From a virus, in IMG/VR virus record IMGVR_UViG_3300002460_000075, positions 1,766 through 40,832 of that record: a stretch of 39,067 nt of DNA; one strand, given 5' to 3'. Position numbers and translations under genes: made by a program. The notes beneath the pieces were generated by a model that was given only the letters and a program-made list of their open reading frames with translations, had not been told where the DNA came from and ran no database searches. Position 1 is the first letter of the stretch. Each line of letters opens with the position of its first letter. Positions 10,113 through 39,067 of the stretch are shown here, piece by piece.

Positions 10113-10492
10113 CATTTTTAGTTAAGGATAATGGAAAAATAAGAAAAGCGGAAAGCGTGCAAGCTGCTGAAAAAGTTATAGAATTAAGGAAGAATAAAGA
10201 CGTATGGACGGTTATTGATGAATTAATTCAACTTTGGGCGAAAGTTGCCCCAGATGAGGAACAGGCTGTAAAAATGAATGTTGCTGATTATCGTGAAGCT
10301 CAACATGATAAAAAGTTTGCACAAACATTAGGAGGAAAACAGTTTGAAAGAAGATTCACTTTAGCTTTTCCCCGTAGTCTCATGCTGATGATTCGTTCTC
10401 AATATAAAGTGTATGAGCTACCAATGGATAGGAAGTTTTTTTTTGAGTTTGCTCGTCGTTACCCAGTATTTCAGATCCCTGAAAAATTATGA
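10109..10492 (+). CDS. Hypothetical structural-region protein (127 aa)
   Basis: A 127-residue protein just after the capsid gene, starting at an ATGA overlap and itself ending in an ATGA overlap with the next gene. The C-terminal half has an aromatic, basic stretch (FERRFTLAFPRSLMLMIR, about residues 75-92; then FFFEFARRYPVF). No named family. Its position, where head-completion proteins are usual, suggests a virion or connector role, but it could be a non-structural chaperone. Confidence 0.55.
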   Translation: MTFLVKDNGKIRKAESVQAAEKVIELRKNKDVWTVIDELIQLWAKVAPDEEQAVKMNVADYREAQHDKKFAQTLGGKQFERRFTLAFPRSLMLMIRSQYKVYELPMDRKFFFEFARRYPVFQIPEKL

Positions 10493-10893
10493 AAACATTA
10501 CAACAATTAGAGAGAGAATATTTTGTAAGAAAGGTAGGGGGTGCCAATAATACAGAACCACTTAATAACATTAAACGACGTTATTTTGTTTCTTTTTTAA
10601 CAGGTTATTCTGTTGGACCTAATGTTCATTTAGATGAACTTGAAAGTAATTGGTTAGTTAAAACAATTACCGATAAAGGTGGAACCGTTAACGATGATGA
10701 CGATTATACTGCTTTATGGAAAATAGCCGTGGCGCAATTTGGTCAAACACCTTCTGCTTATTTAGCTGATAATCAAAGGATATTTTATGTTTATAGTTTA
10801 TTGTCGTCTGCTTCTCCAAGCGCCTCACCAAGTCTCTCACCAAGTCTCTCTCCAAGTATTTCACCATCAATTAGTCCAAGCCCGTCAGAATGA
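10489..10893 (+). CDS. Structural-type protein with Ser/Pro-rich tail
   Basis: A 134-residue protein. Residues 1-105 form a compact domain (LEREYFVRKVGG at the start, YSVGPNVHLDELESNWLV in the middle) of unknown family; the short helical layout resembles head-tail joining or tail-tube-proximal proteins. Residues 107-134 are a low-complexity tail of SPSL/SPSI units. The same tail type, much longer, ends two other structural-type proteins (21601 and 37653). It sits at the end of the capsid operon, directly before the first glycan island, so the tail may be exposed on the virion and modified (inference). Confidence 0.65.
   Translation: MKTLQQLEREYFVRKVGGANNTEPLNNIKRRYFVSFLTGYSVGPNVHLDELESNWLVKTITDKGGTVNDDDDYTALWKIAVAQFGQTPSAYLADNQRIFYVYSLLSSASPSASPSLSPSLSPSISPSISPSPSE
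10807..10890 (+). repeat. Ser/Pro repeat tail, short copy
   Basis: About 27 codons of repeating Ser-x-Ser-Pro units (SPSLSPSLSPSISPSISPS) at the end of the gene at 10489. It shares its codon patterns (TCT-CCA-AGT, ATT-TCA-CCA) with the longer arrays at 22003 and 38967. Confidence 0.8.
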
Positions 10894-10895
10894 AC

Positions 10896-10925
10896 TTGAC
10901 AAATACGTTGTTAGTCGATTATCTT
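10896..10925 (+). promoter_or_regulatory. TAGT-type phage promoter P4 (first glycan island)
   Basis: TTGACA (10896-10901), TAGT (10912-10915), four bases, TATCTT (10920-10925), 18-base spacer. It starts three bases after the stop of the Ser/Pro-tailed gene and drives the small basic gene at 10944 and probably the glycosyltransferases beyond. No terminator lies between this promoter and the gene, unlike P3, P5 and P7. Confidence 0.7.
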
Positions 10926-10943
10926 CGGAGGTAGGTGAATTTT

Positions 10944-11051
10944 ATGGCAAAAAAGAAAAATAAAAAACTAAAAAAAGGTTATAAACACATGATGCCCGAA
11001 ACGCACAAAAAAATGAGCAGGAGCGGGTTTGGTGCTTTTATACATAAATAA
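10944..11051 (+). CDS. Small basic protein (35 aa)
   Basis: A 35-residue very basic product, MAKKKNKKLKKGYKHMMPE, ending RSGFGAFIHK. It has the strong ribosome site GGAGGTAGGTGA just upstream and its own promoter P4, so it is probably translated well. No family recognised; the charge suggests nucleic-acid binding. A small hairpin (AAGCG/CGCTT, near 11060-11074) lies between it and the next gene. Confidence 0.55.
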   Translation: MAKKKNKKLKKGYKHMMPETHKKMSRSGFGAFIHK

Positions 11052-11088
11052 AATCGAACAAGCGTTAATCGCTTAGTGATGAACAATA

Positions 11089-12930
11089 ATGAAAGAAAAA
11101 CAACCAATGCTTTTTCTGAACATGATTCTAAAAGAAACAGAATCGGTTAAGATGGTTAAGCGTTCAATTAACTCAATAAAAGACTACGTTGATGGAATGT
11201 ATATTACCGTCACATATGAAAAAGAAAGACCCACGGCTTCTCCTCTTGTAAAACTTCTTCAAAAATATAAAGTTAATATTTCTTACTTTAAATGGATAAA
11301 AAGATTTGATATTGCCCGTCAGTTTGCTTTAGATCAGATACCAAAAGGTAATCATATTTTTATGATTTGGATAGACTGTGATGATATTTTGCGTGGCGGA
11401 GAACAGTTACGATCTATTTTGGAAGACATGGAGCGATACAAGCAAACTGCGGTTTATCTTCGCTATTGGTATCAAGTCGAATTAGATAAGAATGGTGATA
11501 TTAGGGAAGTTTTAATTGAACATAAAAGGGAAAGGATTATCAGAAATGACGGTACGTGGAAGTGGATTGGAGATTTACATGAAACTTTAATTGAACAACA
11601 ATATGATAACTTGATAAAAGTTTATAGAAAAGAAGCTTTGGTAATTCATTTATCTACTCATGAACGTGGAGAAGCAGCGTTAAAAAGAAATATTGAGATT
11701 TTAGAAAATCAAATGGGGAGGAAAAAGGGTAAAGATCCACGGACCCTTGCTTATCTTGGTAAGGCATATTTTGATAAGGGTCGAACAGTAGAAGAAAAAA
11801 AAAGAGAGGAGTTTTTAAATAAAGCTTTACCTTTATTTCATAAATATTTGCGGGGGGCGGGAGCCCCTGGGTCAGAAAATTATATTGAGGCTTCAGGTTG
11901 GAGAGAGGAAAGAGCAACTGTATGGGCCAATGTAGGAGAAATTGCTATTCTTCAGAATCGCCCTGAGATTGCTGTACAGGCATTTCAGAAGGCAATTGAC
12001 GAGGCATATGAATTTCCAAAATACTATATAGATTTAGCTATGGCTTATACAATGGTAAAAGACTATAAGCGTGCTCGTCATTGGTTGTCAGTTGGAACTG
12101 GAGTTAAAATGCCTAAAACTACTGTTATCACTTTTCCAAAAGAATTGAAAATGAGAGCTCTTCAAGTAGCAATGGATATTAACATGAACGAGAATAAATT
12201 GGAACAAGCACGGGAAAATGGAAAAATGTTATTAGAGCTTACCCCAGAAGATAAAACTAACCAACAAAATTTAGTAGTTATTAATGGGTTAATTGAGTTT
12301 AATCGTGCTTGCCAATCGGTGGTTTTTTTAGGTAAATATTTAGAAAAAGAAAAGAAGAAAGATAAATTAATTCATTTAGTTAAGTCAATTCCCGACAGTA
12401 TGCAACGGGAAAGATTCGCAACTCAAATGAAACATGCTTTCTTACCTAAAAAAGTTTGGGAGAAGCATGAAATAACAATTCTCTGCGGACCATCTTTTGA
12501 AAAATGGTCGCCAAAATCAATCAAAACTGGAATTGGAGGATCAGAAGAGGCGGTTATTAGAATGTCTGAATATTTAACCAAGCTTGGGTGGAAAGTCACG
12601 GTTTATTCTGATCCGCGGGAAGACGTTGGTGAGTATGAGGGTGTTAATTACCGACCATGGTATGAAATAAATTCCAAAGATTCATTTAATATTTTAATTT
12701 TATGGAGAAGTATTGGTTTTGTAGACATTAATCCGCAGGCTAAGTTTATAATGGTTTGGATGCATGATGTCCCAGGACCTGATTTTACTGAGGAAAGAGT
12801 TAATAAATTGGATAAAATTGCAGTTCTTAGTGAATATCATAAAAGTCTATTTAGGTTATTTAAGGATGGTATCGCAACGTCAATGCCAAAAACAAAATTC
12901 TTTTTAACAAGTAATGGAATAAAAATATGA
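11089..12930 (+). CDS. Glycosyltransferase GT2-TPR-GT4, N-terminal part (split gene)
   Basis: A 613-residue fragment of a large three-part enzyme. Residues 1-200 are a GT-A (GT2) domain beginning LNMILKETES with the metal-binding IDCDD at 95-99; about 205-430 are TPR-like helical repeats (RTLAYLGKAYFDKGR, YYIDLAMAYTMVKDY); 470-613 are the N-terminal half of a GT-B (GT4) domain with GIGGSEEAVIRMSEYL. It ends abruptly at LTSNGIKI, where GT4 enzymes normally cross to their C-terminal half; that half is encoded at 13528, after an HNH gene. GT2-TPR enzymes often glycosylate proteins or peptides. Confidence 0.85.
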   Translation: MKEKQPMLFLNMILKETESVKMVKRSINSIKDYVDGMYITVTYEKERPTASPLVKLLQKYKVNISYFKWIKRFDIARQFALDQIPKGNHIFMIWIDCDDILRGGEQLRSILEDMERYKQTAVYLRYWYQVELDKNGDIREVLIEHKRERIIRNDGTWKWIGDLHETLIEQQYDNLIKVYRKEALVIHLSTHERGEAALKRNIEILENQMGRKKGKDPRTLAYLGKAYFDKGRTVEEKKREEFLNKALPLFHKYLRGAGAPGSENYIEASGWREERATVWANVGEIAILQNRPEIAVQAFQKAIDEAYEFPKYYIDLAMAYTMVKDYKRARHWLSVGTGVKMPKTTVITFPKELKMRALQVAMDINMNENKLEQARENGKMLLELTPEDKTNQQNLVVINGLIEFNRACQSVVFLGKYLEKEKKKDKLIHLVKSIPDSMQRERFATQMKHAFLPKKVWEKHEITILCGPSFEKWSPKSIKTGIGGSEEAVIRMSEYLTKLGWKVTVYSDPREDVGEYEGVNYRPWYEINSKDSFNILILWRSIGFVDINPQAKFIMVWMHDVPGPDFTEERVNKLDKIAVLSEYHKSLFRLFKDGIATSMPKTKFFLTSNGIKI

Positions 12931-13550
12931 AAAAACGTACTTATATTAGAACCAAAAATCATAAGAAATTAATGAGTAAAATTTTGACAGGTCGTATATT
13001 TAGTATTAGACACAAAAAGAAAATAAGTGAAAATCATGCAGATGTTGGAGGTAATAAAAATCCAAATTGGAAAGGTGGAGTATCAAAAATATTGAGAAAA
13101 TGTGAAAATTGTTCTAAGAAATTTTTCATTCAACAATCAAAAATAAAATTTAATAGAGGGAAATACTGTTCTAGAATGTGTCGGAACATGAAACAGGGAG
13201 AAAGAATATTAGGAAAAAATCATTGGAATTGGCAGGGTGGTAAAACAAATATAATGGAACGTATTAGAGCATTATCTAAATATAAAAAATGGAGAAATGG
13301 AGTTTATATAAGAGATAAATATTTATGTGTAATATGTAAGAAAAATCATGATTTCAATGCCGATCATATTGTTCCACTAAGCATATTAATTAGAAAAAAT
13401 AATATTTCTACATTAGAACAAGCAATAGAATGTCAAGATTTATGGAATATTAATAATGGTAGAACTTTATGTGAGTATTGCCACAGCCAGACCGATACAT
13501 ATCTTAATAGTTCGATGGTAAAAGATTATGGAAAATTTAGATTTAACTAA
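12927..13550 (+). CDS. HNH homing endonuclease inserted in a glycosyltransferase gene
   Basis: A 207-residue protein with a NUMOD3-like N-terminal segment (SIRHKKKISENH, then GNKNPNWKGG), a Cys4 zinc finger (CENCSKKF to YCSRMCRN, about residues 53-80) and an HNH nuclease core (CVICKKNHDFNADHIVPLS, then RTLCEYCHSQTDTY). It probably makes site-specific breaks that copy its own gene. Its ATG overlaps the stop of the upstream glycosyltransferase half (ATGA) and its 3' end overlaps the start of the downstream half, so it splits one gene with almost no spare DNA and no room for an intron. Confidence 0.85.
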   Translation: MKKRTYIRTKNHKKLMSKILTGRIFSIRHKKKISENHADVGGNKNPNWKGGVSKILRKCENCSKKFFIQQSKIKFNRGKYCSRMCRNMKQGERILGKNHWNWQGGKTNIMERIRALSKYKKWRNGVYIRDKYLCVICKKNHDFNADHIVPLSILIRKNNISTLEQAIECQDLWNINNGRTLCEYCHSQTDTYLNSSMVKDYGKFRFN

Positions 13551-14184
13551 AACAGACAGAAACCCACACCGATTAATTTATATGTCTTCCCCTGACCGTG
13601 GACTTCCTTATCTTCTTAAAAATTGGCCGTTAATTAAAAAAGAAGTTTCAGATGCGGAACTACATATATTTTATGGGTTTAAGGTTTTTGACGCAATGCA
13701 CGTTAACAACCCAGCAAAATTAAAATGGAAAAGTGACGTAATAGCTATGATGAAACAAAAAGATATAGTTTATCATGATCGGGTTGGTCATAATGTTTTA
13801 AATATAGAAATTGCCAAATCTGGTATTTGGGCTTATCCAACAGACTTTCAGGAAATTTCCTGTATAAATGCCATGCGTGCCCAAGCTTGGGGAGCTATTC
13901 CAGTTGTAACAGATTATGCTGCTTTAACTGAAACAGTAAGAAATGGATTAAGGGTAGATGTAGATATTAGGACAGAAGAAGGACAAAAGGAATATTTCAA
14001 GGTTTTGATTGATCTCATGAAGGATGAAAAAAGACAGGAAGAAATTCGTAAAACCATGATGCCTTGGGCAAAAGATTATTTTTTATGGAGTGATGTTGCA
14101 AAGAAATGGGATGAATTATTTAGAATTAAATTACAGTATCCAGAAAGGAAATTTGAAGTAAATTTGAAAGCAGGAGGTGAATAA
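13528..14184 (+). CDS. Glycosyltransferase GT4, C-terminal half (split gene)
   Basis: A 218-residue product that is the nucleotide-sugar-binding half of a GT-B enzyme. RLIYMSSPDRGLPYLL (residues 16-31) is the typical first strand after the domain crossover; AYPTDFQEISCINAMRAQAWG with VVTDYAALTETV carries the donor-site acid motif. It continues from the point where the product of 11089 breaks off (SNGI, then D-L-T-K). ATG 13528 overlaps the HNH stop by 23 bases. Both halves look undamaged, so they may assemble as a two-subunit enzyme (inference). Confidence 0.8.
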   Translation: MENLDLTKTDRNPHRLIYMSSPDRGLPYLLKNWPLIKKEVSDAELHIFYGFKVFDAMHVNNPAKLKWKSDVIAMMKQKDIVYHDRVGHNVLNIEIAKSGIWAYPTDFQEISCINAMRAQAWGAIPVVTDYAALTETVRNGLRVDVDIRTEEGQKEYFKVLIDLMKDEKRQEEIRKTMMPWAKDYFLWSDVAKKWDELFRIKLQYPERKFEVNLKAGGE

Positions 14185-14186
14185 AA

Positions 14187-14393
14187 ATGACACAGTTTAA
14201 TGAACCACCGTCTAAAAAGGGTAAGTGCCCAATTTGTGGGAGGGGAGTTATTATAAGGTCTACCCGTTCTAAAGATCCCAATTATTGTTCACAGGTATGC
14301 GCTTCGCAAGAACGTTATTCTACACGATATAAGGGGACAGCTGCGGGACCGATGGATAGACCGACAAAAGTTAGTAGAACTAAATTATCATAA
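14187..14393 (+). CDS. Small zinc-finger protein (68 aa)
   Basis: A 68-residue protein with CPICGRG at about residues 14-20 and YCSQVCASQ at 34-42, forming a Cys4 zinc site like those in DUF2116/MYND-type small proteins. Downstream is a basic disordered tail. The ribosome site AGGAGGTGA ends six bases before its ATG, so expression is strong, like that of structural genes rather than the neighbouring glycosyltransferases. Function unknown. Confidence 0.6.
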   Translation: MTQFNEPPSKKGKCPICGRGVIIRSTRSKDPNYCSQVCASQERYSTRYKGTAAGPMDRPTKVSRTKLS

Positions 14394-14424
14394 TTTATAA
14401 AAATTAAATAGGGGGTGAAAAATT

Positions 14425-14631
14425 GTGGAAAATACAATGAATATAGAACAAATAGGACGGGAGGTTGCAACTCTTGAAGTTTTAGCACGTGCTTTAGCAT
14501 TGGCGACGGATAGTCGATTAATGTCACTAGAACACGGCGGGGCAGTATGGAAGAAATATTTAAAAGATAGGGGGTTTGATGTTCTTCGTCCTGCTTTAAT
14601 TAAAGAACCAGTAAAAGAGAAGACTAAATAA
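14425..14631 (+). CDS. Hypothetical small helical protein (68 aa)
   Basis: A 68-residue mainly helical protein (IGREVATLEVLARALALATD, about residues 10-29) with no named family. Start is GTG 14425, chosen because GGGGGTGA ends six bases before it; the later in-frame ATG 14437 has no such spacing. One of three strongly initiated small genes (14187, 14425, 14662) inside the glycan island, perhaps head or tail accessory proteins. Confidence 0.55.
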   Translation: MENTMNIEQIGREVATLEVLARALALATDSRLMSLEHGGAVWKKYLKDRGFDVLRPALIKEPVKEKTK

Positions 14632-14661
14632 TTTTATTTTAATTAGAGGGAGGTGATAAAT

Positions 14662-15105
14662 ATGAAGCTTAAAAAGATTGATCCTAATTGGTACCCATCA
14701 GGAAATAGAGAATTAAAAGTGGGGGAGACTATCGAAATAACAGATCCTAAAGCTTTAATTCTTGCGGGACAGGCAGTTGCAGTTGATGAAAATGGAGTTG
14801 AAATTTCCGCTTATAATCTTTATGGCGTAATTACGGGCAATGAAAAGAAAGAATTTGAAGAGTGGTTGGCTATGAAAAAGCAAAATTCTATTAAGGAAAA
14901 TTTAGAAAAACAACAAAGTCAATTAAAGGAAGAGTTAACTTCCATTCCAACGACAACGGTTGTAGCTGAAAATGTAAAAACTACAACTGGGGTACGAGAA
15001 TTAGAATGGACAGAATTACAAAAAAAAGCCAGAGATTTGGGAGTTTATAAGCCAGGAATGAAGAGAGAAGAAGTAGAGGCCGCAGTTGAAAATAAAGTTG
15101 CTTAA
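14662..15105 (+). CDS. Hypothetical structural-region protein with HeH/SAP-like end (147 aa)
   Basis: The N-terminal part (LKVGETIEITDPKALILAGQAV) resembles short beta-rich modules seen next to phage head genes; residues 75-95 are a Lys/Glu coiled coil; the last 35 residues (LEWTELQKKARDLG, then KPGMKREEVEAAV) look like a HeH/SAP-type helix-extended loop-helix module. ATG 14662 follows GAGGGAGGTGA by five bases; the upstream GTG 14653 lies inside that site. Role unknown. It ends just before the glycosyltransferase gene at 15107. Confidence 0.55.
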   Translation: MKLKKIDPNWYPSGNRELKVGETIEITDPKALILAGQAVAVDENGVEISAYNLYGVITGNEKKEFEEWLAMKKQNSIKENLEKQQSQLKEELTSIPTTTVVAENVKTTTGVRELEWTELQKKARDLGVYKPGMKREEVEAAVENKVA

Positions 15106-15106
15106 T

Positions 15107-15895
15107 ATGAAAATATTATTTATTCATGATAATAAATATGAGGTTAAAGACGGCCTTTGGGCTGCTCTTAATTTGTTGGAGAAAGATGGGTTTGAGGTAG
15201 AGAGGCGTAATCTAAACGATAAGTTGGTATTATCTTATGACGCATCGGATTATGATTTTGTTTTGGGGTGGGGCGCCTTTAGCAGTTCCGTTGATAATTT
15301 AATTCAGGGGAATAATTTTAAAAAGACTGGTTTATGTATCGGGGGAACCGCGGCGCCACCCATCGGTCAAGATAAATATGATGTTTTATTTTATGAAACA
15401 GATTATTATTTACCACAAATTCAACACCATAAAAATGTAGTTCATGCGTTTGGGGTAAATATTGATATTTATAAACCAGTTGATAATGCATTTATTATAT
15501 GGGATTGGTTAACGGTTGGGGCTTTTGCAAGGTGGAAACGGCAGGAAAAACTATTAGATAAAGGTGGTTATAGACTTGCGATTGGTGAGATTCAAAAAGA
15601 AAATATAGAAGAATCAGGTTTTATAATAACTACGCTTATTACTAATGGAATTACAATTTCAGATATGGTTGAACCTGAAAAACTTAATTTAATTTATAAT
15701 GCCTCCGCAAAAGTTTATATTCCAGCCGATACTAATGGCGGAGGGGAGAGGGCAGTTTTAGAGGCTCGCGCTTGCGGGAAACCAGTTGAAGTTGAATTTG
15801 ATAATCCCAAGCTTTATGAACTTACAAAAAGTCCTATTTGGGATCAGTATTATTATTTTGATGCTTTAAAGCGGGGTATTAATAGTTGTTTTTAA
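15107..15895 (+). CDS. GT4-like glycosyltransferase (262 aa)
   Basis: The product begins MKILFIHDNKYEVKDG, a GT-B first strand, and has the GT4 donor-site segment GGGERAVLEARACGKPVEV near residues 212-230, with the acidic pair in E-R-A-V-L-E. At 262 residues it is short for GT4 (350-400), with a reduced N-terminal domain. It probably transfers a sugar from a nucleotide donor in the cytoplasm; donor and acceptor are unknown. ATG 15107 is chosen over a TTG 21 bases upstream within the previous gene. No ribosome site; probably coupled. Confidence 0.75.
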   Translation: MKILFIHDNKYEVKDGLWAALNLLEKDGFEVERRNLNDKLVLSYDASDYDFVLGWGAFSSSVDNLIQGNNFKKTGLCIGGTAAPPIGQDKYDVLFYETDYYLPQIQHHKNVVHAFGVNIDIYKPVDNAFIIWDWLTVGAFARWKRQEKLLDKGGYRLAIGEIQKENIEESGFIITTLITNGITISDMVEPEKLNLIYNASAKVYIPADTNGGGERAVLEARACGKPVEVEFDNPKLYELTKSPIWDQYYYFDALKRGINSCF

Positions 15896-15896
15896 T

Positions 15897-16076
15897 ATGA
15901 GAACTGTTTGTAATAAACATAATGGGGCGTGGGTAAAGCATAAAAAAAAGTTTGATATTTATAATTTCTTTTTTGATTATTATGAAATGGTGGATGATGG
16001 TTTTATTCATTATGATCGGGTTAATAAATTAGATAGGTTTTTTGATTGGATATGCGAAAAGTTAAAAACAAAATAA
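15897..16076 (+). CDS. Hypothetical small protein (59 aa)
   Basis: A 59-residue product, MRTVCNKHNGAWVKHKKKFD, then an aromatic stretch (IYNFFFDYYEMVDDG) and a helical end (DRFFDWICEKLK). The ATG follows the previous stop by one base and the 3' end overlaps the methyltransferase gene at 16052 by 25 bases, matching the dense packing of the island. No family recognised. Confidence 0.5.
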   Translation: MRTVCNKHNGAWVKHKKKFDIYNFFFDYYEMVDDGFIHYDRVNKLDRFFDWICEKLKTK

Positions 16077-16615
16077 ATTTAGGTTGCGGTCCTCTTCCCC
16101 TACATCAACAACATTTAGATATTATGGGTGGACTTGAGGGATGGACTTTAGTTGATAAATACGTTAAAGACCCTAAAATTGAAAATTGGGATGCTGAGGT
16201 TTTACTTCAAGTTCCAGATAACTCCGTTGATATTCTTTATACTTCTCATCTTTTGGAACATCTGCCTCACAAAAATATTGAAAAGGATTTAACTCTTTGG
16301 TTAGGGAAAATGAAAAGTGGAGGAAAAATAGTAATTAACGTTCCTGATATGGCTTGGGCTGCTAGTGAAATTTTAAAATATGAATCAGGTCAGAAGTTAG
16401 AGTCTGATTATTTTACAACTTTTGCTGGGGATCGCGGTCTTTTATCCATTATCTATGGTTCTCAATCTCATGAGGGAGAGTTTCATAAGGGTGGGTTTAC
16501 CGAAAAATATATCAGCGAACTATTGTTTACTGTGGGTTTTAAAAATATAAAAATTAAAACAGGTATTGATGCTCATGATATGGGGGTTATCGTGGCTATT
16601 GCCGAAAAACCATGA
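16052..16615 (+). CDS. Class I SAM-dependent methyltransferase (1)
   Basis: A 187-residue methyltransferase. KINLGCGPLPL (about residues 7-17) is motif I for SAM binding; VDILYTSHLLEHLPHKN (about 67-83) is the motif IV region, and KMKSGGKIVINVPD the strand that follows. It is closest in style to methyltransferases of polysaccharide clusters (Methyltransf_11 type), which methylate sugar hydroxyls. The start is ATG 16052; TTG 16046 adds two residues. It overlaps the next glycosyltransferase by four bases. Confidence 0.8.
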   Translation: MRKVKNKINLGCGPLPLHQQHLDIMGGLEGWTLVDKYVKDPKIENWDAEVLLQVPDNSVDILYTSHLLEHLPHKNIEKDLTLWLGKMKSGGKIVINVPDMAWAASEILKYESGQKLESDYFTTFAGDRGLLSIIYGSQSHEGEFHKGGFTEKYISELLFTVGFKNIKIKTGIDAHDMGVIVAIAEKP

Positions 16616-17208
16616 AAATTTCAGTAGTTATTCCTTGTTATACAATAAATAAACATTTAGAAGAATTAGCCATACAGTGTGCCTTAAGCTATCGCGAACA
16701 ATGTGATGAACTGGTCGTTTCAGAGGATTCAGGATTTTATAGTCCTGAATTAATGAAGCTTTCCGACATTTATATTTGGGGTAAGGAGAATATTGGTTTT
16801 ACTAGAAATGTAAACCGCGGATGGAAGAATGCCCACGGAGATTACGTGATGATTGTTAATTCTGATACTACTCTTCATCGGGGAAATCTAAATGATCTTT
16901 GCATTCCAGGAAAAGTCACCTCGCCCGAGATTGTTTCTCAATACATTCCCTATCTTGCTGGGCCATTTTTTTGTGTTCCAAAAGAAATAGCAAAAGAGCG
17001 TGGATATTTGATTGAAGAGATGAAAACTTATTCTTCTGATTCTGAATATGATATTCGTATTCGAGATATTTTTCAGAAGGTCCCGACGGTTAGAATTTAT
17101 CATGAAATGATGCAGACTGTGAAAGCTGCTGGAATTGAAGGCGGAGCTGAACAAGAGAGGGATCGTTTAGTTTATCAAAAGTTAAGGGAGGAAGGAAAAG
17201 CAAAATGA
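16612..17208 (+). CDS. GT2-family glycosyltransferase (198 aa)
   Basis: MKISVVIPCYTINKHLEELA is the GT-A first strand and helix; ENIGFTRNVNRGWKNAHGDY with MIVNSDTTLH (about residues 82-88) is the nucleotide-sugar site with an N-S-D-T metal motif. The enzyme is short for GT2 and lacks a membrane segment, so it acts in the cytoplasm. ATG overlaps the preceding stop (ATGA) and the 3' end overlaps the next ATG by four bases. Confidence 0.8.
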   Translation: MKISVVIPCYTINKHLEELAIQCALSYREQCDELVVSEDSGFYSPELMKLSDIYIWGKENIGFTRNVNRGWKNAHGDYVMIVNSDTTLHRGNLNDLCIPGKVTSPEIVSQYIPYLAGPFFCVPKEIAKERGYLIEEMKTYSSDSEYDIRIRDIFQKVPTVRIYHEMMQTVKAAGIEGGAEQERDRLVYQKLREEGKAK

Positions 17209-21524: not shown

Positions 21525-21543
21525 AGAAAAATATAGTTAATTA

Positions 21544-21590: not shown

Positions 21591-21600
21591 ATATCAATAT

Positions 21601-22716: not shown

Positions 22717-22730
22717 TATAGGATTAGTTC

Positions 22731-22760: not shown

Positions 22761-22770
22761 AATAATAAAC

Positions 22771-23205: not shown

Positions 23206-23206
23206 T

Positions 23207-24293: not shown

Positions 24294-24295
24294 AT

Positions 24296-29598: not shown

Positions 29599-29599
29599 A

Positions 29600-31197: not shown

Positions 31198-31198
31198 T

Positions 31199-31908: not shown

Positions 31909-32666
31909 AAAATTTACTAATTTACATCAATCCGAAAGAGGATTTTGATAAAGAAACAAGCGTTCTCGTAAAACTCCAAATTGAAAATAGTTTGGAGTTG
32001 GGTTGGCCGTTGAAGGATTTATTGTTGGTAACGAATTTTCCCTATAAATATATGGGGGTTAGAGCCTTTATTATTGGTGGGGAGAATTATTGTAAACTTT
32101 TTCCTCAAGCTACAAAAGTTGATACGACGGCCTATCTTTTTAAAATGGGTTTTATTGGTGATAATTTGTATTGGTTACACGATTTAGATGCCTATCAGCA
32201 GGAAGTAATTACCGAGCAAGAATTGGGATTAGATAATGTAGATTTGGGTCTCACGGATTATGGAAGAAAACCGCGTTGGAATGGTGGGAGCACATTTATA
32301 AAAAAAACAGCGGGGGATATTTACCAAACATTAAAAGACGTAATGTATGCTAAAAATGAGAATTATAAAACTGGTATATGGAAAAACGAGGAAGATGTTT
32401 TGATGGAAATGACAACTAAAAACACGCTCAACATCAAAAATAGAGTTAAAAGATTAAATTATACTTATAATTTTGGTGTACGTAAAATTGCTCTTTGTTA
32501 TCCTACAACCATAAAACCGATCAAAGTTTTACATTTTCATCCAGAAAGAATTTATTGGGGAAAAACTCGGGCTTTAGACATTATAATGTATGGTAAGAAT
32601 GAGTTAAAAATTCCGATTATGAATAAGCGATTAACGAAATTATTTAAAAAATATGGAATTGTCTAA
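31905..32666 (+). CDS. Conserved island protein, paralogue B (GT-A-like, unknown family)
   Basis: A 253-residue paralogue of the protein at 30472. It keeps the N-terminal MKNLLIYINPKEDFDKET, the WLHDLDAYQ motif near residue 90, and the C-terminal YTYNFGVRKIAL with HFHPERIYWGK. Divergence between the copies is well beyond recent duplication. Probably a sugar transferase (inference from context and H-D-x-D). Overlaps the next gene by 14 bases. Confidence 0.55.
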   Translation: MKNLLIYINPKEDFDKETSVLVKLQIENSLELGWPLKDLLLVTNFPYKYMGVRAFIIGGENYCKLFPQATKVDTTAYLFKMGFIGDNLYWLHDLDAYQQEVITEQELGLDNVDLGLTDYGRKPRWNGGSTFIKKTAGDIYQTLKDVMYAKNENYKTGIWKNEEDVLMEMTTKNTLNIKNRVKRLNYTYNFGVRKIALCYPTTIKPIKVLHFHPERIYWGKTRALDIIMYGKNELKIPIMNKRLTKLFKKYGIV

Positions 32667-33249
32667 ATTAATACCTGAACCTATTAGGGATTTACAAGCA
32701 TTGGAAATTAGACGTCATCGTAGAGTCTGGAAACCTTTCATGCAAAAATATGATTGTAAAAAGGTTGCTGAACTTGGAGTATTTGCAGGACAGAATTTCA
32801 GAAGGATGATTGTACACAATCCAGAAGTAGCTGTGGCGGTTGATGTTTGGAAGTATGATAAAAATATTGCTAGATGTGATTCTGGTTTCTCTCAGACAGA
32901 CATGGACAAATTATTACATAGGTTTAAGTATAAAGTGATGGGCTTACCCTTTGTTCAAATTGTAAGAAAATATACATTTGATGCGGTACGCGACTTTCCC
33001 GATGAATATTTTGACTTGATTTATATAGACGCAGACCACACTTATGAAGGGTGTAAAAGAGACATGGAAGATTGGTATCCTAAACTTAAACGTGGTAGGT
33101 TTTTTACGGGGGACGATTATACTAATAGACGAGCTTCCCGAACGGGGTTAGTTTTTGGAGTAGTAAGGGCCGTTGACGAATTTGCAACCCAAAACCATTT
33201 ACAAGTTTATAGATTGCCCCAAAACGGTTGGGCAATAATTAAACCATGA
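32653..33249 (+). CDS. SAM-dependent methyltransferase, Methyltransf_24 type (7)
   Basis: A 198-residue protein with VAELGVFAGQNFRRMIV (about residues 38-54) as motif I, VAVDVWKYDKN as the ribose-binding end, and FDLIYIDADHTYEGCKRDME (from about 120), the I-D-A-D-H-x-Y signature of Methyltransf_24. These act on small molecules or sugars and often need a divalent metal. The following gene encodes a divergent homologue, overlapping by four bases. Confidence 0.85.
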   Translation: MELSKLIPEPIRDLQALEIRRHRRVWKPFMQKYDCKKVAELGVFAGQNFRRMIVHNPEVAVAVDVWKYDKNIARCDSGFSQTDMDKLLHRFKYKVMGLPFVQIVRKYTFDAVRDFPDEYFDLIYIDADHTYEGCKRDMEDWYPKLKRGRFFTGDDYTNRRASRTGLVFGVVRAVDEFATQNHLQVYRLPQNGWAIIKP

Positions 33250-33872
33250 AAATCAGTGAAGCAATAAAACATAAGGGACGTCCTTTTTGGATTCCAGATT
33301 GTACGCGTTCTGAACTTCCTGCTTTCTTTAAAAAAATAGGTTTTAAAAGGGGAGTTGAAATTGGAGTTGCGTGGGCACAAAACATTATTGATTATTGTGA
33401 GGCGGGACTTGAAATTTATGGAGTTGATCCCTGGAAGGACAGTGAACACAATATTTACCGTAAAATTATTAGCATTCCAGGTGAAAGGGCAAAAACTATT
33501 GATACGGTTTATGAGTATGCGCGAGAACGTACCGCTAAATATCCTAACTGTCAATTAATCCGCAAAACCTCGATGGAGGCTTCGGCTGATTTTCCTAAAA
33601 GAAGTCTTGATTTTGTATATATCGACGGGAATCATGGTTTCGGATATGTGGCGATGGATTTAATGAAATGGTCGGATAAAGTGAAAAGGGGTGGGGTGAT
33701 TGCTGGACATGATTATTATTCAACTCAAGGAAATCGGGAACTTCGTCAGGTGGGTTACATAGTTGATGCTTATGCAAAAACCTATGATTACACTAATTGG
33801 TATGTTTTAGGAAGTAAAGACAGTACAAGATTTGATCGGGAATTCAGTTATCTGTTTTTTAAACATTGGTAA
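33246..33872 (+). CDS. SAM-dependent methyltransferase, Methyltransf_24 type (8)
   Basis: A 208-residue homologue of its upstream neighbour. GVEIGVAWAQNIIDYC (about residues 36-51) is motif I, IYGVDPWKDSEHN motif II, and LDFVYIDGNHGFGYVAMDLM the I-D-G-N-H signature, followed by KRGGVIAGHDYY. Two adjacent family members suggest methylation of two different positions. Starts in an ATGA overlap; the next gene follows by one base. Confidence 0.85.
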   Translation: MKISEAIKHKGRPFWIPDCTRSELPAFFKKIGFKRGVEIGVAWAQNIIDYCEAGLEIYGVDPWKDSEHNIYRKIISIPGERAKTIDTVYEYARERTAKYPNCQLIRKTSMEASADFPKRSLDFVYIDGNHGFGYVAMDLMKWSDKVKRGGVIAGHDYYSTQGNRELRQVGYIVDAYAKTYDYTNWYVLGSKDSTRFDREFSYLFFKHW

Positions 33873-33873
33873 T

Positions 33874-34629
33874 ATGACAAAAGGCATCATCTACTACACT
33901 AATAATCGTTGTAAAGAGCCTATTTTTTCTGCTTGCCAAAAATATATAAAAGAATCGAGCTTACCAATTACGGCTGTTTCTTTACAACCTATGAATTTTG
34001 GGGATACAAAAGTTGTCCTTAAAAATAGAGAAAGTAGTTATCCAACTTATATTTTAGAAATTATGACAGCTCTTGAAAATGCTAAAGAAGATTATGTTTT
34101 CTTTTGTGAACACGATGTACTCTATAGTAGTACACATTTTGATTTTGTTCCACCTAAAAATAATATTTTCTATTACAATAACAATATTTGGAGATGGAAG
34201 TTGTGGGATTTCAAGTTAATTAGATATGATAATATGCGACCGCTATCTTGTCTTTGCGCTAATCGCTTATTCGCCCTAGAACATTATAAAAAAAGGTGGA
34301 AGGCTATCCACGATCTGGGACTAGATCATTTTAGAAGTCGCGAACCAAGAATGGGACGTGTGTGGGGTTATGAACCAGGCACAAAACCACGAAGACGCGG
34401 TGGATTTTCAGATGACGTTTGTGAATTATGGAATTCTAAAGGCTGCAATATAGATATTCGCCATAATAGAACATTCTCAAGTATTAAATGTGACCTGTCA
34501 GACTTTAAAAATAAACCAACCAATTGGCGAGAAATAAGATATAATGAAATACCAGATTGGGATCTACGACAGGTATTTCCAGAGGGGATGAGGAAACATT
34601 GTCAGTTGGATTTTGACACAGCACCATGA
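33874..34629 (+). CDS. GT-A-like putative glycosyltransferase (251 aa)
   Basis: MTKGIIYYTNNRCKEPIFSA starts the domain; ALENAKEDYVFFCEHDVLYS (from about residue 67) has the C-E-H-D acidic motif, then FDFVPPKNNIFYYNNN and LCANRLFALEHYKKR. Paralogue of the product of 28921. The C-terminal part is rich in Arg and Trp. ATG 33874 is preferred because upstream in-frame codons lie in the previous gene. Ends in ATGA overlap with the sugar dehydrogenase gene. Confidence 0.65.
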   Translation: MTKGIIYYTNNRCKEPIFSACQKYIKESSLPITAVSLQPMNFGDTKVVLKNRESSYPTYILEIMTALENAKEDYVFFCEHDVLYSSTHFDFVPPKNNIFYYNNNIWRWKLWDFKLIRYDNMRPLSCLCANRLFALEHYKKRWKAIHDLGLDHFRSREPRMGRVWGYEPGTKPRRRGGFSDDVCELWNSKGCNIDIRHNRTFSSIKCDLSDFKNKPTNWREIRYNEIPDWDLRQVFPEGMRKHCQLDFDTAP

Positions 34630-35420
34630 AAAAAATTGCTATAATTGGCCATGGATATGTTGGAAAAGCTTATCATAAGGTTTTTCCCAATGCATATATT
34701 TATTCAAGAAATATCGGGACCAAAGAAGAAGTAAATAAGTGCGATATGGCTATTGTGTGTGTTCCAACGGACCCCTTACCAGACGGAACTCTAGATATGT
34801 CTATAGTTGAAGAAGTGGTTGGGTGGATTGAAACTCCTCTAATTTTAATTAAATCTGCTCTCATGCCAGGTACAACAGATAGATTAGTTAAAAAAACAGG
34901 TAAGAAAATTGCAGTAAGCGTAGAGTATGTTGGAATGGGAAATTATTATATTCCAGATCAATATCCCAACCCAGAAGATCCTCGTCAGCACCCAATGATT
35001 TTAGTAGGAGGAGAATTAGAAACGGCAACGGCCTGTGCAGAAATTCTTTGGGAAAAAGTTGCTCCGACAGTTAAAATACATCTTCTCTCGGCCCTTGAAT
35101 GTGAAATATCTAAGTTAGTAGAGAATTCTTATCCAGCTTTAAAAGTGACTTTCATAAATTGTTTGATGTCTCTTGCACAAAAAAGCGGGAGTAATTTCAT
35201 CAAATTACAACAAGGTTGGTCATCCGATCCTAGGGTTGACGGGATGCATCTAAGGGCAATTTCTTACAAACGAGGTTGGAGAAGTCATTGTTGGGATAAG
35301 GATGTTCCAGCTTTAGCTAAATATGCGGCAAGTATTGGAGCAACCGATATGGAAGCATTAATTGAAACTGTATTAAAAATAAATAATGAACATTTAAAAA
35401 TTAATGAAAAAAAGATATGA
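34626..35420 (+). CDS. UDP-glucose/GDP-mannose 6-dehydrogenase family enzyme, short form
   Basis: A 264-residue nucleotide-sugar dehydrogenase. GHGYVG (8-13) is the NAD-binding loop; CVPTDPLPDGTLD (45-57) and LIKSALMPGTTDRL (74-87) follow; ISKLVENSYPALKVTFIN (161-178) is the central helix with Lys163 and Asn167; HCWDKD (221-226) holds the catalytic Cys222. The family oxidises a sugar C6 to a carboxylate. Usual length is 390-450 residues; the C-terminal nucleotide-sugar-binding domain is absent here, so substrate binding must differ or use a partner. It may feed the AsnB-like amidotransferase. Confidence 0.85.
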   Translation: MKKIAIIGHGYVGKAYHKVFPNAYIYSRNIGTKEEVNKCDMAIVCVPTDPLPDGTLDMSIVEEVVGWIETPLILIKSALMPGTTDRLVKKTGKKIAVSVEYVGMGNYYIPDQYPNPEDPRQHPMILVGGELETATACAEILWEKVAPTVKIHLLSALECEISKLVENSYPALKVTFINCLMSLAQKSGSNFIKLQQGWSSDPRVDGMHLRAISYKRGWRSHCWDKDVPALAKYAASIGATDMEALIETVLKINNEHLKINEKKI

Positions 35421-35544
35421 TTTCAATAATCAGATGAAGAAATATAATTTTACGGGTTATAAACAATTGATTCCAATCTATTCAAGAGAAAAGTTAATCT
35501 TAAAATCTTATGGTAGGATGGTCAACCCCAATGTCCTTATTTAA
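35404..35544 (+). CDS. Short ORF, possible gene fragment (46 aa)
   Basis: A 46-residue frame (MKKRYDFNNQMKKYNFTGYK, ending GRMVNPNVLI) overlapping the dehydrogenase end by 17 bases; ATG 35434 is an alternative start. The sequence reads like the start of a larger protein cut short. It stops inside an A/T hairpin shared with the minus-strand Tad2-like gene. Perhaps it lost its 3' end when that gene arrived. No family recognised. Confidence 0.35.
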   Translation: MKKRYDFNNQMKKYNFTGYKQLIPIYSREKLILKSYGRMVNPNVLI

Positions 35545-35562
35545 TTTTACAAAATTAAATAA
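35537..35562. terminator. Bidirectional A/T hairpin between convergent genes
   Basis: TTATTTAATTTT (35537-35548) and AAAATTAAATAA (35551-35562) are perfect inverted arms; the effective loop must include a few of the inner pairs. It lies where the + strand operon and the minus-strand gene meet tail to tail and overlaps both stop codons. T-runs follow on both strands, so it could end transcription both ways, though the stem has no G-C pairs and is weak. Confidence 0.45.
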
Positions 35563-35812
35563 CAATATAATCGTTACCACTTATATCTCCAAGATTAATA
35601 ATCCATTGGTAATTTTTACCATTAGGTTTGTGCAAACTCAAGATTTCCCCGTTCATAAATCCATAATATTCTCTATCTCCCCATTCAAGTTTACTAATTT
35701 TTTTACCAAGAAGAATTTGTTCCATTGCTTCGGAAAAACGCATAGTTTTTGGAGATCCGTTAAGTATAATTTTAGCTGTTTTTGGAAGAGGACTCATTGT
35801 TAGTTCCGCCAT
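35555..35812 (-). CDS. Tad2-like (DUF2829) putative anti-Thoeris protein
   Basis: An 85-residue protein with a 23-residue extension, then MRFSEAMEQILLGKKISKLE, WGDREYYGFMNG and a final WIINLGDISGNDYIVI. This fits the DUF2829 pattern of F-x-E-A ... G-K-x-(I/V) ... W ... D-(I/L)-x-x-x-D-(W/Y). Characterised relatives (Tad2) sequester the cyclic-ADP-ribose-type signal of Thoeris defence. It is the only credible minus-strand gene. Start ATG 35812 follows GAGGTGA by five bases; GTG 35821 overlaps that site. Binding activity of this short divergent copy is not shown. Confidence 0.7.
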   Translation of the reverse strand: MAELTMSPLPKTAKIILNGSPKTMRFSEAMEQILLGKKISKLEWGDREYYGFMNGEILSLHKPNGKNYQWIINLGDISGNDYIVI

Positions 35813-35853
35813 TTGATTCACCTCGCAATCGTTAGAAATTTTAATTTTATTAG

Positions 35854-35862
35854 ATTATAACA
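35854..35862 (-). promoter_or_regulatory. Extended -10 promoter for the Tad2-like gene
   Basis: On the minus strand the sequence reads TGTTATAAT, a perfect extended -10 (TGnTATAAT), without a clear -35 box. Start of transcription near 35846 gives a leader of about 33 bases containing GAGGTGA. It lacks the TAGT tetramer, suggesting early or constitutive expression by host polymerase, different from the late-type promoters. Confidence 0.6.
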
Positions 35863-35867
35863 TATTT

Positions 35868-36518
35868 ATGAAAGGGATAAAAGGATTTCAAAGGGGAGAG
35901 CATAATCCCAGTTTTGGAAAGCGACCTCATAATTTTGGCAAACATCCCTCGGAAGAAACTAGGAAAAAAATGAGAGAGAGCCATAAGGGATATGTAATGC
36001 CAGAAAGCCAAAAAAAGAAGATAAGTACGTCTAATAAGGGTAAAAAGAAACCACCTCGTTCTGAAGAATATAGGAGAAAGCTTGGTTTATATAATAAGGG
36101 TAGGAAACATTCCAAAGAATGGAAAGAAAAAATGAGTAAAAAAATGCGAGGAAGAAAATTATCTAAGGAATGGAAAAAGAAGATAGGTGAATCTCATAAA
36201 GGGAAACAACAATCTGAAGAACATAGAAGAAAAAATAGTGAAGCCCATAAGAGGGAAAAAAGCAGTCTTTGGCGTGGTGGTAAATCTTTTGAACTTTATG
36301 GTTTTGATTGGACAAAATTATTAAGACATTCGATAAGAACTAGAGATTGTTTTATTTGTCAAATTTGTAAAAAGAATGGTTGGATAGTTCATCATATTGA
36401 TTATAATAAAAAGAATAATAATCCTGGTAATTTAATTACTCTTTGTCAGAAATGTCATAGTAAGACAAACTTTAATAGAAATTATTGGATTAAATACTTC
36501 AAAAAAATGTATGAGTAG
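35868..36518 (+). CDS. HNH homing endonuclease with NUMOD3 repeats
   Basis: A 216-residue basic protein. About residues 10-135 hold repeated NUMOD3-type units (HPSEETRKKMRESHKG; SKEWKEKMSKKMRG; SEEHRRKNSEAHK), at least five DNA-contact modules in a row. The C-terminal HNH domain is CFICQICKKNGWIVHHIDYN with LITLCQKCHSKTNFNR (about 155-205). It starts right beside the divergent promoter of the Tad2-like gene and ends in an overlap (ATGAGTAG) with the next glycosyltransferase. Free-standing homing enzyme, third in the window. Confidence 0.9.
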   Translation: MKGIKGFQRGEHNPSFGKRPHNFGKHPSEETRKKMRESHKGYVMPESQKKKISTSNKGKKKPPRSEEYRRKLGLYNKGRKHSKEWKEKMSKKMRGRKLSKEWKKKIGESHKGKQQSEEHRRKNSEAHKREKSSLWRGGKSFELYGFDWTKLLRHSIRTRDCFICQICKKNGWIVHHIDYNKKNNNPGNLITLCQKCHSKTNFNRNYWIKYFKKMYE

Positions 36519-37503
36519 TCAATATAAACTTAGTATTGTTATTCCAGCTCGTAATGAAATGTTTGTAAAGAATACTGTTGAAGATATTCTGAAAAATAAA
36601 GAGGATAAAACAGAAATTATAGTAGTTTTAGATGGACAATGGGCAAATCCTTCTTTAGTACAACATTCAGATGTGAATGTTATTTATGTTAATCAAGCTA
36701 TCGGACAAAGAATGGCAACCAATCTTGGGGTAAAATTGTCAAGAGCATTTTATATTATGAAAGCCGACGGCCATTGTGCTTTTGATAAAGGGTTTGACCG
36801 TAAAATGATAGAGTTTTTTAAGGAAGTTGGAGATAATGTGACCGCCGTACCGATTATGAGGAATTTATGGGCTTTTGATTGGAAGTGCTATAAAACGGGA
36901 TGTGGTTGGACAAAATATCAAGGCCCAACTCCCAAAAAATGTGAAAAATGCGGTAGAAGTCATAGATTACATCGTAAGATGCGTTGGATTGGAAAACACA
37001 ATCCCCAGAGTACGTCTTATTGTTTTGATTCCACCCCACATTTTCAATATTTTGAGGATTGGAAGCATAGAGCACAATATATTAAAGATAAGAAAGAAAA
37101 AGGTTATACTGAATCAATGTCTTTGCAGGGAAGCTGTTTTATGCTAACCCGTGAAAAATATTGGGAGTTGGATATTTGTGATGAAAATTTGGGAAGCTGG
37201 GGGGCACAAGGGATAGAAACGGCCTGTAAAACATGGCTCTCAGGTGGACGTGTGTTGGTAAATCATAAGACTTGGTACGCCCATCTCTTTAGAACTCAGG
37301 GAGGCAATTTCAGCTTTCCATATCCCCAATCGGGTAACGAAGTCTCTCGTACTAAAAAAAGAGTGAAAGATTTATTTTGGAATAAACAATGGCCGAAGCA
37401 AATTCACCCCGTTTCATGGTTAGTTAGGAAGTTTGCCCCCGTAAAAGGTTGGTCCGATGAAGATATTAAAAATTTAGAAATTCATGAAGCTAAATTCAAA
37501 TAG
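36511..37503 (+). CDS. GT2-family glycosyltransferase with zinc-ribbon insert, DxHC group (330 aa)
   Basis: YKLSIVIPARNEMFVKNTVE and VVLDGQWANPS open the GT-A domain; GQRMATNLGVKLSRAFYIM leads to KADGHCAFDKGFD (metal motif D-G-H-C near residue 90) and MSLQGSCFMLTREKYW (about 205). Between them sits CYKTGCGWTKYQ with KKCEKCGRSH (about 126-150), a four-Cys zinc ribbon missing from the paralogues at 23496 and 29600. Last gene of the island; promoter P7 and a terminator follow. Confidence 0.85.
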   Translation: MSSQYKLSIVIPARNEMFVKNTVEDILKNKEDKTEIIVVLDGQWANPSLVQHSDVNVIYVNQAIGQRMATNLGVKLSRAFYIMKADGHCAFDKGFDRKMIEFFKEVGDNVTAVPIMRNLWAFDWKCYKTGCGWTKYQGPTPKKCEKCGRSHRLHRKMRWIGKHNPQSTSYCFDSTPHFQYFEDWKHRAQYIKDKKEKGYTESMSLQGSCFMLTREKYWELDICDENLGSWGAQGIETACKTWLSGGRVLVNHKTWYAHLFRTQGGNFSFPYPQSGNEVSRTKKRVKDLFWNKQWPKQIHPVSWLVRKFAPVKGWSDEDIKNLEIHEAKFK

Positions 37504-37505
37504 GA

Positions 37506-37535
37506 TTGCTTTTTATGTAATTAGTAGACTATAGT
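37506..37535 (+). promoter_or_regulatory. TAGT-type phage promoter P7
   Basis: TTGCTT (37506-37511), TAGT (37522-37525), four bases, TATAGT (37530-37535), 18-base spacer. The -35 is weaker than in P2-P6. Transcription from about 37542 meets the terminator at 37573-37605 before reaching the gene at 37653. The leader has the AACACATCCATTAAACCG box. Confidence 0.65.
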
Positions 37536-37572
37536 TTAATTAATATAAGTTTATTAGGATAACACATCCATT

Positions 37573-37605
37573 AAACCGCCTGTTTATTATAGGGCGGTTT
37601 TTTTT
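37573..37605 (+). terminator. Intrinsic terminator in the leader of the last fibre gene
   Basis: AAACCGCC (37573-37580) pairs with GGCGGTTT (37593-37600) around a 12-base loop, followed by T to 37605. It can end the second glycan operon and would also cut short transcripts from P7. It is nearly the same stem as the one at 21560. Confidence 0.8.
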
Positions 37606-37652
37606 GTGGTTTTAAAAGTTATTTTATAACAAATTTTAAGAAAGGAGTATAA

Positions 37653-39067
37653 ATGGCAGTAGTACATGATGCTAGTTCAGAATCCCATACAGGCACAACA
37701 GGATCGGCTTCCGAAGCCTCTTTTACATGGGATCATACACCAGTTGGAACACCACGGGGTATTTTAATTTTCGTTAATACAATAAGAGATGTAGACTATA
37801 CAACTTCGGTTACTTATGGAGGTGTAAATGTTCCGATTATTCCAGGCGCTTATGCCGTTGATACTGTTACAGAACCAGGTTTTGTTCAGGCTTACTTTTT
37901 AGGATCAGGAATTCCAACGGGAACTCAAGCGGTTATTGTGAACAGAACTAATAATACATCAGTGATGTATGCGGTTGCCATATCGGTAACTGCTACTGAA
38001 AATACAATACCCGCTCATTTAATAAGACTTCATCAAAGCGGAACTGGTGCGTATTCAGAACAAAATATAGATGATGGATCTCCTGGAACGAATAGCGTCA
38101 GATATGCGGGAGGATATTGGGGGGGGAACGACCCAGTTCCAGCAGGAGCAAACAGTACATCTTTGCAAAGTATTGATTTTGGATCATTTACTTTTCATGT
38201 AGTTCGGGAGACTACGGCAGGGCAGGGAGCAAGACCAGTAGGTTTTAATTCATCTGGGGGTACTGATGATAGGGCAGGAGTACATCTTGCCATTCGTGAA
38301 GTAATAGGGGATATAACCGCATCAAATCTTACTACAGGTACGGATAGCGATGGGGGTAGCGGATCATCAACCGCCTCTATAACTTTATCAGCAAACAGAT
38401 TAATTTTATTAACCGTAGTAAGTAAAACCGATATTACTACTAATCCCAATACTCCTACTGCTACAAGCACAGGGGCAACGTGGGAAGCTGTAAATAATAT
38501 TGTTTACGATACGTCAGGAACATCAAGAAGGAAAGTATCAACTCTTCGCACTATGGTTTCAAGCGGTCAAACTGGAGTAATTAGTATTGACTTTGGGGGG
38601 CAGAATCAATCGTTTGTCGCTTGGTCTGTTGATGAATTTTCTAATGTTGACACATCGGGTTCTAATGGATCGGGGGCAATAGTTCAATCGGTAGCAGAAA
38701 AAGATGAAACGGGTAATCCTCCATTAATAATAGATTTGGCGACGTTCGGAAATGTAAATAATGCGGCTTTTGGAGCATTTGGTATATCTGATCAAGCAAT
38801 AGTTGGGGCTGGTTTTACGGCGTTAGGATTATCGGAAGATGTAAGCGTTGCCGCTGCTACAGAGTATAGACCTGAAAATGATATTTCAATAGATATGGAT
38901 TGGGAAACGGCAGCTAATCAGGTAGGGGGAATAGGAGTTGAGATAAAAGCCGCAGCAGTTTCTGAGAGTATTTCTCCAAGCCTTAGTCCATCGGTTTCAG
39001 TTAGTCTCAGCCCTTCTCTGTCTCCGAGCATTAGTGTAAGTTTAAGCCCTTCTATTTCAGTAAGCCT
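37653..39067 (+). CDS. Structural/fibre-like protein with Ser/Pro tail (partial, runs off window)
   Basis: The frame is open from ATG 37653 to the window end, 471 codons. The start has AAAGGAG seven bases upstream. Two similar beta-sandwich-like domains are visible: about residues 5-115 (SASEASFTWDHTPVGTPRGI, then AVAISVTATE) and 225-335 (GSGSSTASITLSANRLILL, then FVAWSVDEFSNV); a further beta domain follows to about 435. From about 439 the SPSLSPSVSVSLSPS tail begins and is cut off. Probably a virion surface protein, perhaps carbohydrate-binding; third Ser/Pro-tailed gene. Confidence 0.7.
   Translation, partial: MAVVHDASSESHTGTTGSASEASFTWDHTPVGTPRGILIFVNTIRDVDYTTSVTYGGVNVPIIPGAYAVDTVTEPGFVQAYFLGSGIPTGTQAVIVNRTNNTSVMYAVAISVTATENTIPAHLIRLHQSGTGAYSEQNIDDGSPGTNSVRYAGGYWGGNDPVPAGANSTSLQSIDFGSFTFHVVRETTAGQGARPVGFNSSGGTDDRAGVHLAIREVIGDITASNLTTGTDSDGGSGSSTASITLSANRLILLTVVSKTDITTNPNTPTATSTGATWEAVNNIVYDTSGTSRRKVSTLRTMVSSGQTGVISIDFGGQNQSFVAWSVDEFSNVDTSGSNGSGAIVQSVAEKDETGNPPLIIDLATFGNVNNAAFGAFGISDQAIVGAGFTALGLSEDVSVAAATEYRPENDISIDMDWETAANQVGGIGVEIKAAAVSESISPSLSPSVSVSLSPSLSPSISVSLSPSISVS
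38967..39067 (+). repeat. Ser/Pro-repeat tail, third copy (cut by window end)
   Basis: Over 33 codons of SPSLSPSVSVSLSPS type at the 3' edge, continuing beyond the window. The unit and codon style match the arrays at 10807 and 22003. Confidence 0.8.

Follow-up and report, generated by a model that had tools for sequence, protein, structure and literature searches.

Why would a phage keep two long runs of glycan enzymes beside its capsid gene, interleaved with genes for proteins that end in Ser/Pro repeats? The question is raised by the uncultured virus record IMGVR_UViG_3300002460_000075 (40,832 bp; incomplete, possibly a fragment), of which bases 1766-40832 were analyzed here (39,067 nucleotides, hereafter the window). 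The two runs, or glycan islands, occupy positions 11089-21498 and 23496-37503, and an initial annotation had proposed that they decorate the virion itself. We consider that the islands could be a cytosolic protein-glycosylation system of the phage, with virion proteins as putative acceptors, and we give this reading an even chance; it is the best one because the first island enzyme resembles GmaR and SunS and because no exporter was found. Two results are new here: Ser/Pro tracts and phage glycosyltransferases (GTs) are strongly linked at the genome level, and an enzyme kept near the capsid gene across a clade appears, from homology and modeling, to be a GmaR/SunS-like GT. A literature search found no report of Ser/Pro tails together with phage GTs.

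The lead enzyme and the glycan islands

The first enzyme of island 1 (hereafter the lead enzyme) has a GT2-TPR-GT4 architecture. It had been assigned to a GT2-TPR class that often modifies proteins, and sequence and fold agree with this: a profile built from 17 sequences matched the GT2 domain of GmaR (22ao; profile positions 11-214, E 2e-12) and also the TPRs of OGT, while the AlphaFold model (mean pLDDT 87.6) had SunS and ThuS as its best Foldseek matches in the PDB (E 5e-15 to 9e-13; target-normalised TM 0.55-0.68). Invariant positions include D96, D98, and D99, the catalytic, metal-binding DxDD, and the W159-x-G161-x-x-H164-E165 motif (WxGxxHE). Homology and model support an enzyme built like a protein glycosyltransferase of the GmaR/SunS type, and such an activity is predicted. 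GT2-TPR relatives were detected in about 180 viral contigs.

A capsid search recovered 23 close relatives (71-86% capsid identity), of which 22 were examined gene by gene and the remaining one, L021 (5.7 kb), by family searches only. Two of the 22 end 0.3 and 1.9 kb after the capsid gene; the 20 that extend more than 2 kb beyond it all encode the lead enzyme, which lies a few genes 3' of the capsid gene in every relative reaching that position. In most relatives it is one uninterrupted open reading frame (ORF) of 817-879 aa; in the window an HNH endonuclease gene, overlapping at both ends, splits it into two ORFs. An RNA-family search of the window found none, so no known intron lies at the HNH insertion, and the split gene may still be functional. 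In the relative G012 (L086:10484-13996), an in-frame, intein-like insert with an HN|C end follows EIS in the same gene; this conserved gene has been targeted by two different selfish elements. Two further HNH endonucleases lie within island 2, at 25913-26368 and 35868-36518, the second with a NUMOD3 motif.

About sixteen GTs, eight methyltransferases, and two deacetylases had been proposed for the islands. Nine GTs have Pfam or structural support, whereas about eight more are weak matches or GT-like by resemblance only (Table 1); six methyltransferases are supported and two more, at 16046 and 28289, are weak, and of the deacetylases the PIG-L protein (17968) stood, the polysaccharide deacetylase (27080) being weak. 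The amidotransferase/Asn-synthase (24281) and the sugar dehydrogenase (34626) were both supported by family matches. Overall, roughly half to two thirds of the island ORFs have an enzyme assignment backed by Pfam. Conserved members at the edges of the island (11089 and 15086 where it starts, 20773 where it ends) flank a variable middle, a pattern that looks like a glycan under diversifying selection. In the relative G014, positions 36746-46251 (L077, L078) hold a second glycan island with a sugar epimerase, in which part of the lead gene (homologs of 11089 and 13528) is present again in diverged form.

In agreement with the initial annotation, no flippase, polymerase, or lipid-carrier transferase of the Wzx/Wzy type was found in the islands of this incomplete record. 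A hydropathy scan detected no multi-membrane-pass protein among the GT genes of the window, none in most relatives, and nothing flippase-like in any of them; moreover, the Pfam families listed for parts of G014 and G007, large relatives with better coverage, include no flippase, polymerase, or lipid-carrier transferase. The island enzymes look cytosolic. In this context, the islands could instead modify the host envelope during infection, blocking superinfection or hiding receptors, and not the virion. Superinfection prevention is commonly proposed for phage GTs (PMC10202952), and enzymes such as the deacetylases and the sugar dehydrogenase are found in pathways for surface glycans too; however, the islands show no exporter, the lead enzyme has a protein-glycosyltransferase architecture, and the genes are next to the capsid gene, within the structural module. 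We take this alternative seriously and judge it unlikely. As regards glycosylation of phage DNA, protection against nucleases is an established role that is often suggested for the GTs of aquatic phages (PMC10202952, PMC12619734). This is very improbable here, since the lead enzyme resembles protein glycosyltransferases and the Pfam families listed for G014 and G007, two relatives covered in large part, include no thymidylate-synthase-like, hydroxymethylase, or TET/JBP match, the window record being a fragment.

Ser/Pro tails in the clade and across phages

Three ORFs of the window end in Ser/Pro repeats of the SPSxSPS type, as had been reported, with the two islands lying between them; the fibre ORF, previously placed at 21601, spans 21571-22716. 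Its tail has 238 aa (118 Ser), that of the 10489-10893 protein 30 aa (15 Ser), and that of 37653-39065, which runs off the record end, at least 35 aa (at least 18 Ser), consistent with the earlier count of well over a hundred Ser. These are true protein repeats, the underlying DNA having diverged, and they are rare: among 234 random-sample viral loci, about 2.2 Mb in all, one had a comparable tract. All three had been called virion proteins, a status supported for 21571 by sequence matches to tail PHROGs and for 10489 by its conserved position beside the capsid gene; the 37653 protein matched no Pfam or PHROG family, and a search with its body found nothing in the relatives or in cultured phages. 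When 10489 homologs were aligned, nearly all relatives stopped where the window's tail begins, and the predicted model has five helices with a low-confidence tail. A head-tail adaptor fold was considered for this protein and rejected, its predicted five-helix fold giving no significant fold match. Its N-terminus returned nothing as a single-sequence query; homologs did emerge among the relatives' ORFs.

Low complexity made protein searches with the Ser/Pro tails largely uninformative, and SPSxSPSxSP was instead sought in DNA with one codon pattern. This gave at least 120 viral stretches, the first part of all matches to the pattern, and 73 of the 80 loci examined had at least six [ST]P[ST] in one frame. 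The SPS set, drawn from this first part, comprised 41 records, each 12 kb or longer and with repeats other than (SP)n, picked before GTs were looked up; only GT2 (PF00535) was counted, and the IMG/VR virus classification was relied on where the large terminase subunit (TerL) was unseen. GT2 was present in 33 of the 41 SPS-bearing contigs, against 6/76 in metagenomic contigs of the same minimum length drawn with random 14-mers (two samples, 4/33 and 2/43; Fisher p about 1e-15) and 3/17 in distant SU10-capsid phages. Contigs with collagen-like tracts (L560-L639) fell in between (13/35; p 1.5e-4 vs SPS and 3e-4 vs random). GT density reached 5.5 per 100 kb in SPS contigs vs 0.31 in random ones, and 13 of the 15 SPS contigs with TerL carried GT2. 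Furthermore, of the 33 SPS contigs with GT2, 25 have the nearest one within 5 kb of the tract, where rotation predicts 13.7 (p 5e-5), and in 32 it is on the tract's strand; this proximity could in part reflect a shared home in the late region. An unrelated phage fragment (L205:1-11810) has sugar-pathway genes directly upstream of four SPS-tract proteins, some of the tracts being in linker positions.

Shared ecology or ancestry might also produce such an association, if large environmental phages held both features for unrelated reasons. The controls were random within the collection, and collagen-like phages were enriched over random contigs as well; nevertheless, SPS contigs are diverse (GC 0.30-0.66, with one nucleotide match among all pairs), the length strata agree (at 40-70 kb, GT2 in 17/17 SPS vs 2/23 random contigs), and the positional clustering acts as an internal control. 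We regard this explanation as unlikely.

Several findings weigh against the virion-glycosylation reading. Whether tails and islands co-occur in relatives and are lost together had been named as a check, and within the clade this is not so: eight relatives, each covered for 18 kb or more past the capsid gene (G001, G007, G011, G012, G013, G014, G015, G023), keep islands with no SPS tract, the very pattern that the initial annotation had named as contradicting its proposal, and a tail was seen in 1 of 22 relatives, G018 (L022), as a different repeat on the 10489 homolog. Ser/Pro tracts occur in 2 of 80 GT2-TPR loci, the lead enzyme in 1 of the 41 SPS-bearing contigs, the controls were not matched for habitat, and PF00535 enzymes can act on many acceptors. 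As islands are kept without tails, the Ser/Pro tails are an optional add-on in the window's clade, and the island must also serve something else; a lead enzyme present in one SPS contig means that no single enzyme-acceptor pair explains the tail-GT association. The relation is one-sided, with tails predicting GTs and GT2-TPR loci rarely tailed. The proposed link between tails and islands therefore stands across unrelated phages, and not as a dependence of the island on tails in the clade.

A serious alternative is that the tails are unmodified flexible spacers or linkers, that the islands glycosylate something else, and that both merely share the late structural region. It accommodates the eight tailless relatives, the Ser/Pro tracts of L205, which resemble linkers inside proteins, and the SPS contigs L202 and L203, which have no GT2. 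It fits poorly with the presence of GT2 in 80% of SPS contigs vs 37% of collagen-like fibre phages and with the closeness of GTs to the tract within a contig, and we find it doubtful. In G013, a long collagen-like GDTG-repeat protein (positions 38684-40639; L092/L093) follows the 22771 homolog, near the site of the window's Ser/Pro fibre, and is a possible Thr-rich acceptor in place of Ser/Pro.

Gene order, neighboring genes, and host search

The + strand of the window carries every gene of interest: a head module comes first, followed by the two enzyme runs, with the fibre gene (21571) and the conserved 22771 gene between them (Table 1). Both terminase ORFs are kept in 22 relatives (58-90% identity), and portal homologs occur in 23 records of relatives. 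The 10109 protein had no Pfam or PHROG match and the 22771 protein no Pfam match.

Table 1. Features of the window, with single ORFs named by their start position
Feature	Position	Strand	Evidence
DUF4326 protein, upstream of terminase	790-1095		PF14216, E 4.5e-19
Terminase large subunit, two ORFs (2718-3635, 3697-4356)	2718-4356	+	phrog_2, E 8.8e-8 (first ORF)
Portal protein, SU10-like	4959-7166	+	PF23899 below cut-off; phrog_1216
Scaffold-like protein	8076	+	Head module, between portal and capsid gene
Major capsid protein, SU10 type	9074-9982	+	PF17236, E 8.9e-65
Conserved small protein, head module	10109-10492	+	Homologs in 21 records of relatives
Small helical head-module protein with 30-aa Ser/Pro tail (about residues 105-134)	10489-10893	+	Homologs in 19 records of relatives
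Lead GT, first half: GT2-TPR and start of GT4	11089-12930	+	GmaR GT2 homology, PF07719 TPR, model, Foldseek
HNH endonuclease inside lead GT gene	12927-13550	+	PF13391
Lead GT, GT4 half	13528-14184	+	PF13692 below cut-off; aligns with C-terminal part of relatives' single ORF, 53-63% identity
Conserved island protein, GT-like by eye	15086-15895	+	16 records of relatives, 32-62%; no Pfam match
Methyltransferase (weak)	16046-16615	+	PF08241, E 0.0015
Two GTs: GT2 (16612-17208), GT-B type (17205-18071)	16612-18071	+	PF00535, PF13524
PIG-L/LmbE type de-N-acetylase	17968-18606	+	PF02585, E 6.9e-14
Two methyltransferases (18603, 19054)	18603-19533	+	PF08241, PF13489
Three GT-like proteins (19521, 20102, 20773)	19521-21498	+	20773: weak PF10111, 8 relatives at 40-58%; others resemblance only
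Tail-fibre protein with Ser/Pro tail	21571-22716	+	phrog_28171 and phrog_4900 (tail); tail-fibre matches in cultured phages
Conserved protein between the two islands	22771-23205	+	In 7 relatives
Island 2, first part: GT2 23496, amidotransferase/Asn-synthase 24281, methyltransferase 25461, HNH 25913, TOD1/MUCI70-like GT 26365	23496-26964	+	Pfam
Island 2, second part, GTs: GT4 27553, GT2 29600, GT2 36511; GT-like (weak or by resemblance only) 28921, 30472, 31905, 33832	27080-37503	+	Pfam
Island 2, second part, others: deacetylase (weak) 27080, methyltransferases 28289 (weak), 31258 (FkbM), 32653, 33246, UDPG/MGDP dehydrogenase 34626, HNH 35868		+	Pfam
Ser/Pro-repeat protein, open at 3' end (record end)	37653-39065	+	Tail composition

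No host is assigned, because a profile of the major capsid protein found no relative in 85k cellular genomes. A GT2-TPR search of cellular genomes gave one full-length match (L111:2020-3705, 27% identical), on a contig of 4.4 kb whose bin is Candidatus Taylorbacteria. This hints weakly at a patescibacterial host, or else at a phage contig placed in the wrong bin, and at 4.4 kb the contig is too short to give a host.

Proposed mechanism and known systems

If the islands are a cytosolic protein-glycosylation system, the GT2-TPR-GT4 enzyme would place the first sugar(s) on a virion protein recognized through its TPR part, and exchangeable GTs, methyltransferases, deacetylases, and sugar-nucleotide enzymes would extend and trim the glycan before assembly. 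A glycan made in the cytosol would need no flippase, polymerase, or lipid carrier, and the decorated protein would then be assembled into the virion. Ser/Pro tails on fibre and head proteins may be optional high-capacity O-glycan acceptors, gained in some lineages and with their Ser residues as putative attachment sites, other structural proteins acting as acceptors in lineages without tails. The resulting coat may influence virion lifetime, defence, or adsorption; the antigenic or defence-masking role first suggested for it is a putative one.

More broadly, many unrelated tailed phages may build mucin-like virions, with Ser/Pro tracts of fibres and head proteins as O-glycan scaffolds for cytosolic phage GTs encoded a few kb from them. 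In that case an SPS tract in a genome would point to a self-glycosylating phage, and the GT2-TPR-GT4 of this SU10-like clade would be one of several initiating enzymes; we offer this extension tentatively, as somewhat short of probable. If true, Ser/Pro tracts near GTs and a capsid-linked protein GT would let glycosylated phages be spotted from genomes, would give a function to many unexplained GTs of environmental phages, usually ascribed to DNA or receptor modification, and would provide a source of soluble protein-glycosylation enzymes with natural acceptors.

Virion glycosylation has been documented in very few systems. In mycobacteriophages Che8 and Rita, phage GTs are reported to be linked to glycans on capsid and tail-tube proteins, at their C-termini (Freeman 2023, via PMC11256854, PMC12619734). 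The window shares phage-encoded GTs with that system, and glycans on its virion proteins are predicted; however, Maravista, a close relative of Che8, has two putative GTs near the genome end, whereas the window has about 17 GT candidates and tailoring enzymes beside the capsid gene, and the GT2-TPR-GT4 lead enzyme and the Ser/Pro tails also set it apart.

SunS and ThuS, the best fold matches of the lead enzyme, are peptide S-glycosyltransferases with a peptide acceptor. They differ from it in sequence (11-16% identity), in their acceptor, a bacteriocin Cys, and in having no GT4 part. GmaR, the bifunctional flagellin O-GlcNAc transferase of Listeria, likewise begins with a GT2 domain (E 2e-12, intact metal-binding motif) followed by TPR repeats, but its C-terminal antirepressor is replaced by a GT4 domain in the lead enzyme, which is a phage gene. 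GmaR adds GlcNAc to flagellin, and its TPR has been proposed to recognize flagellin (PMC9638930). In FlmG, a cytoplasmic TPR-GT, the TPR part binds flagellin (PMC7591256). Although FlmG has the order TPR then GT-B and belongs to a bacterial system with no virion, it offers a parallel to what is proposed for the phage: cytoplasmic O-glycosylation of a filament protein before assembly, with TPR-mediated binding of the acceptor.

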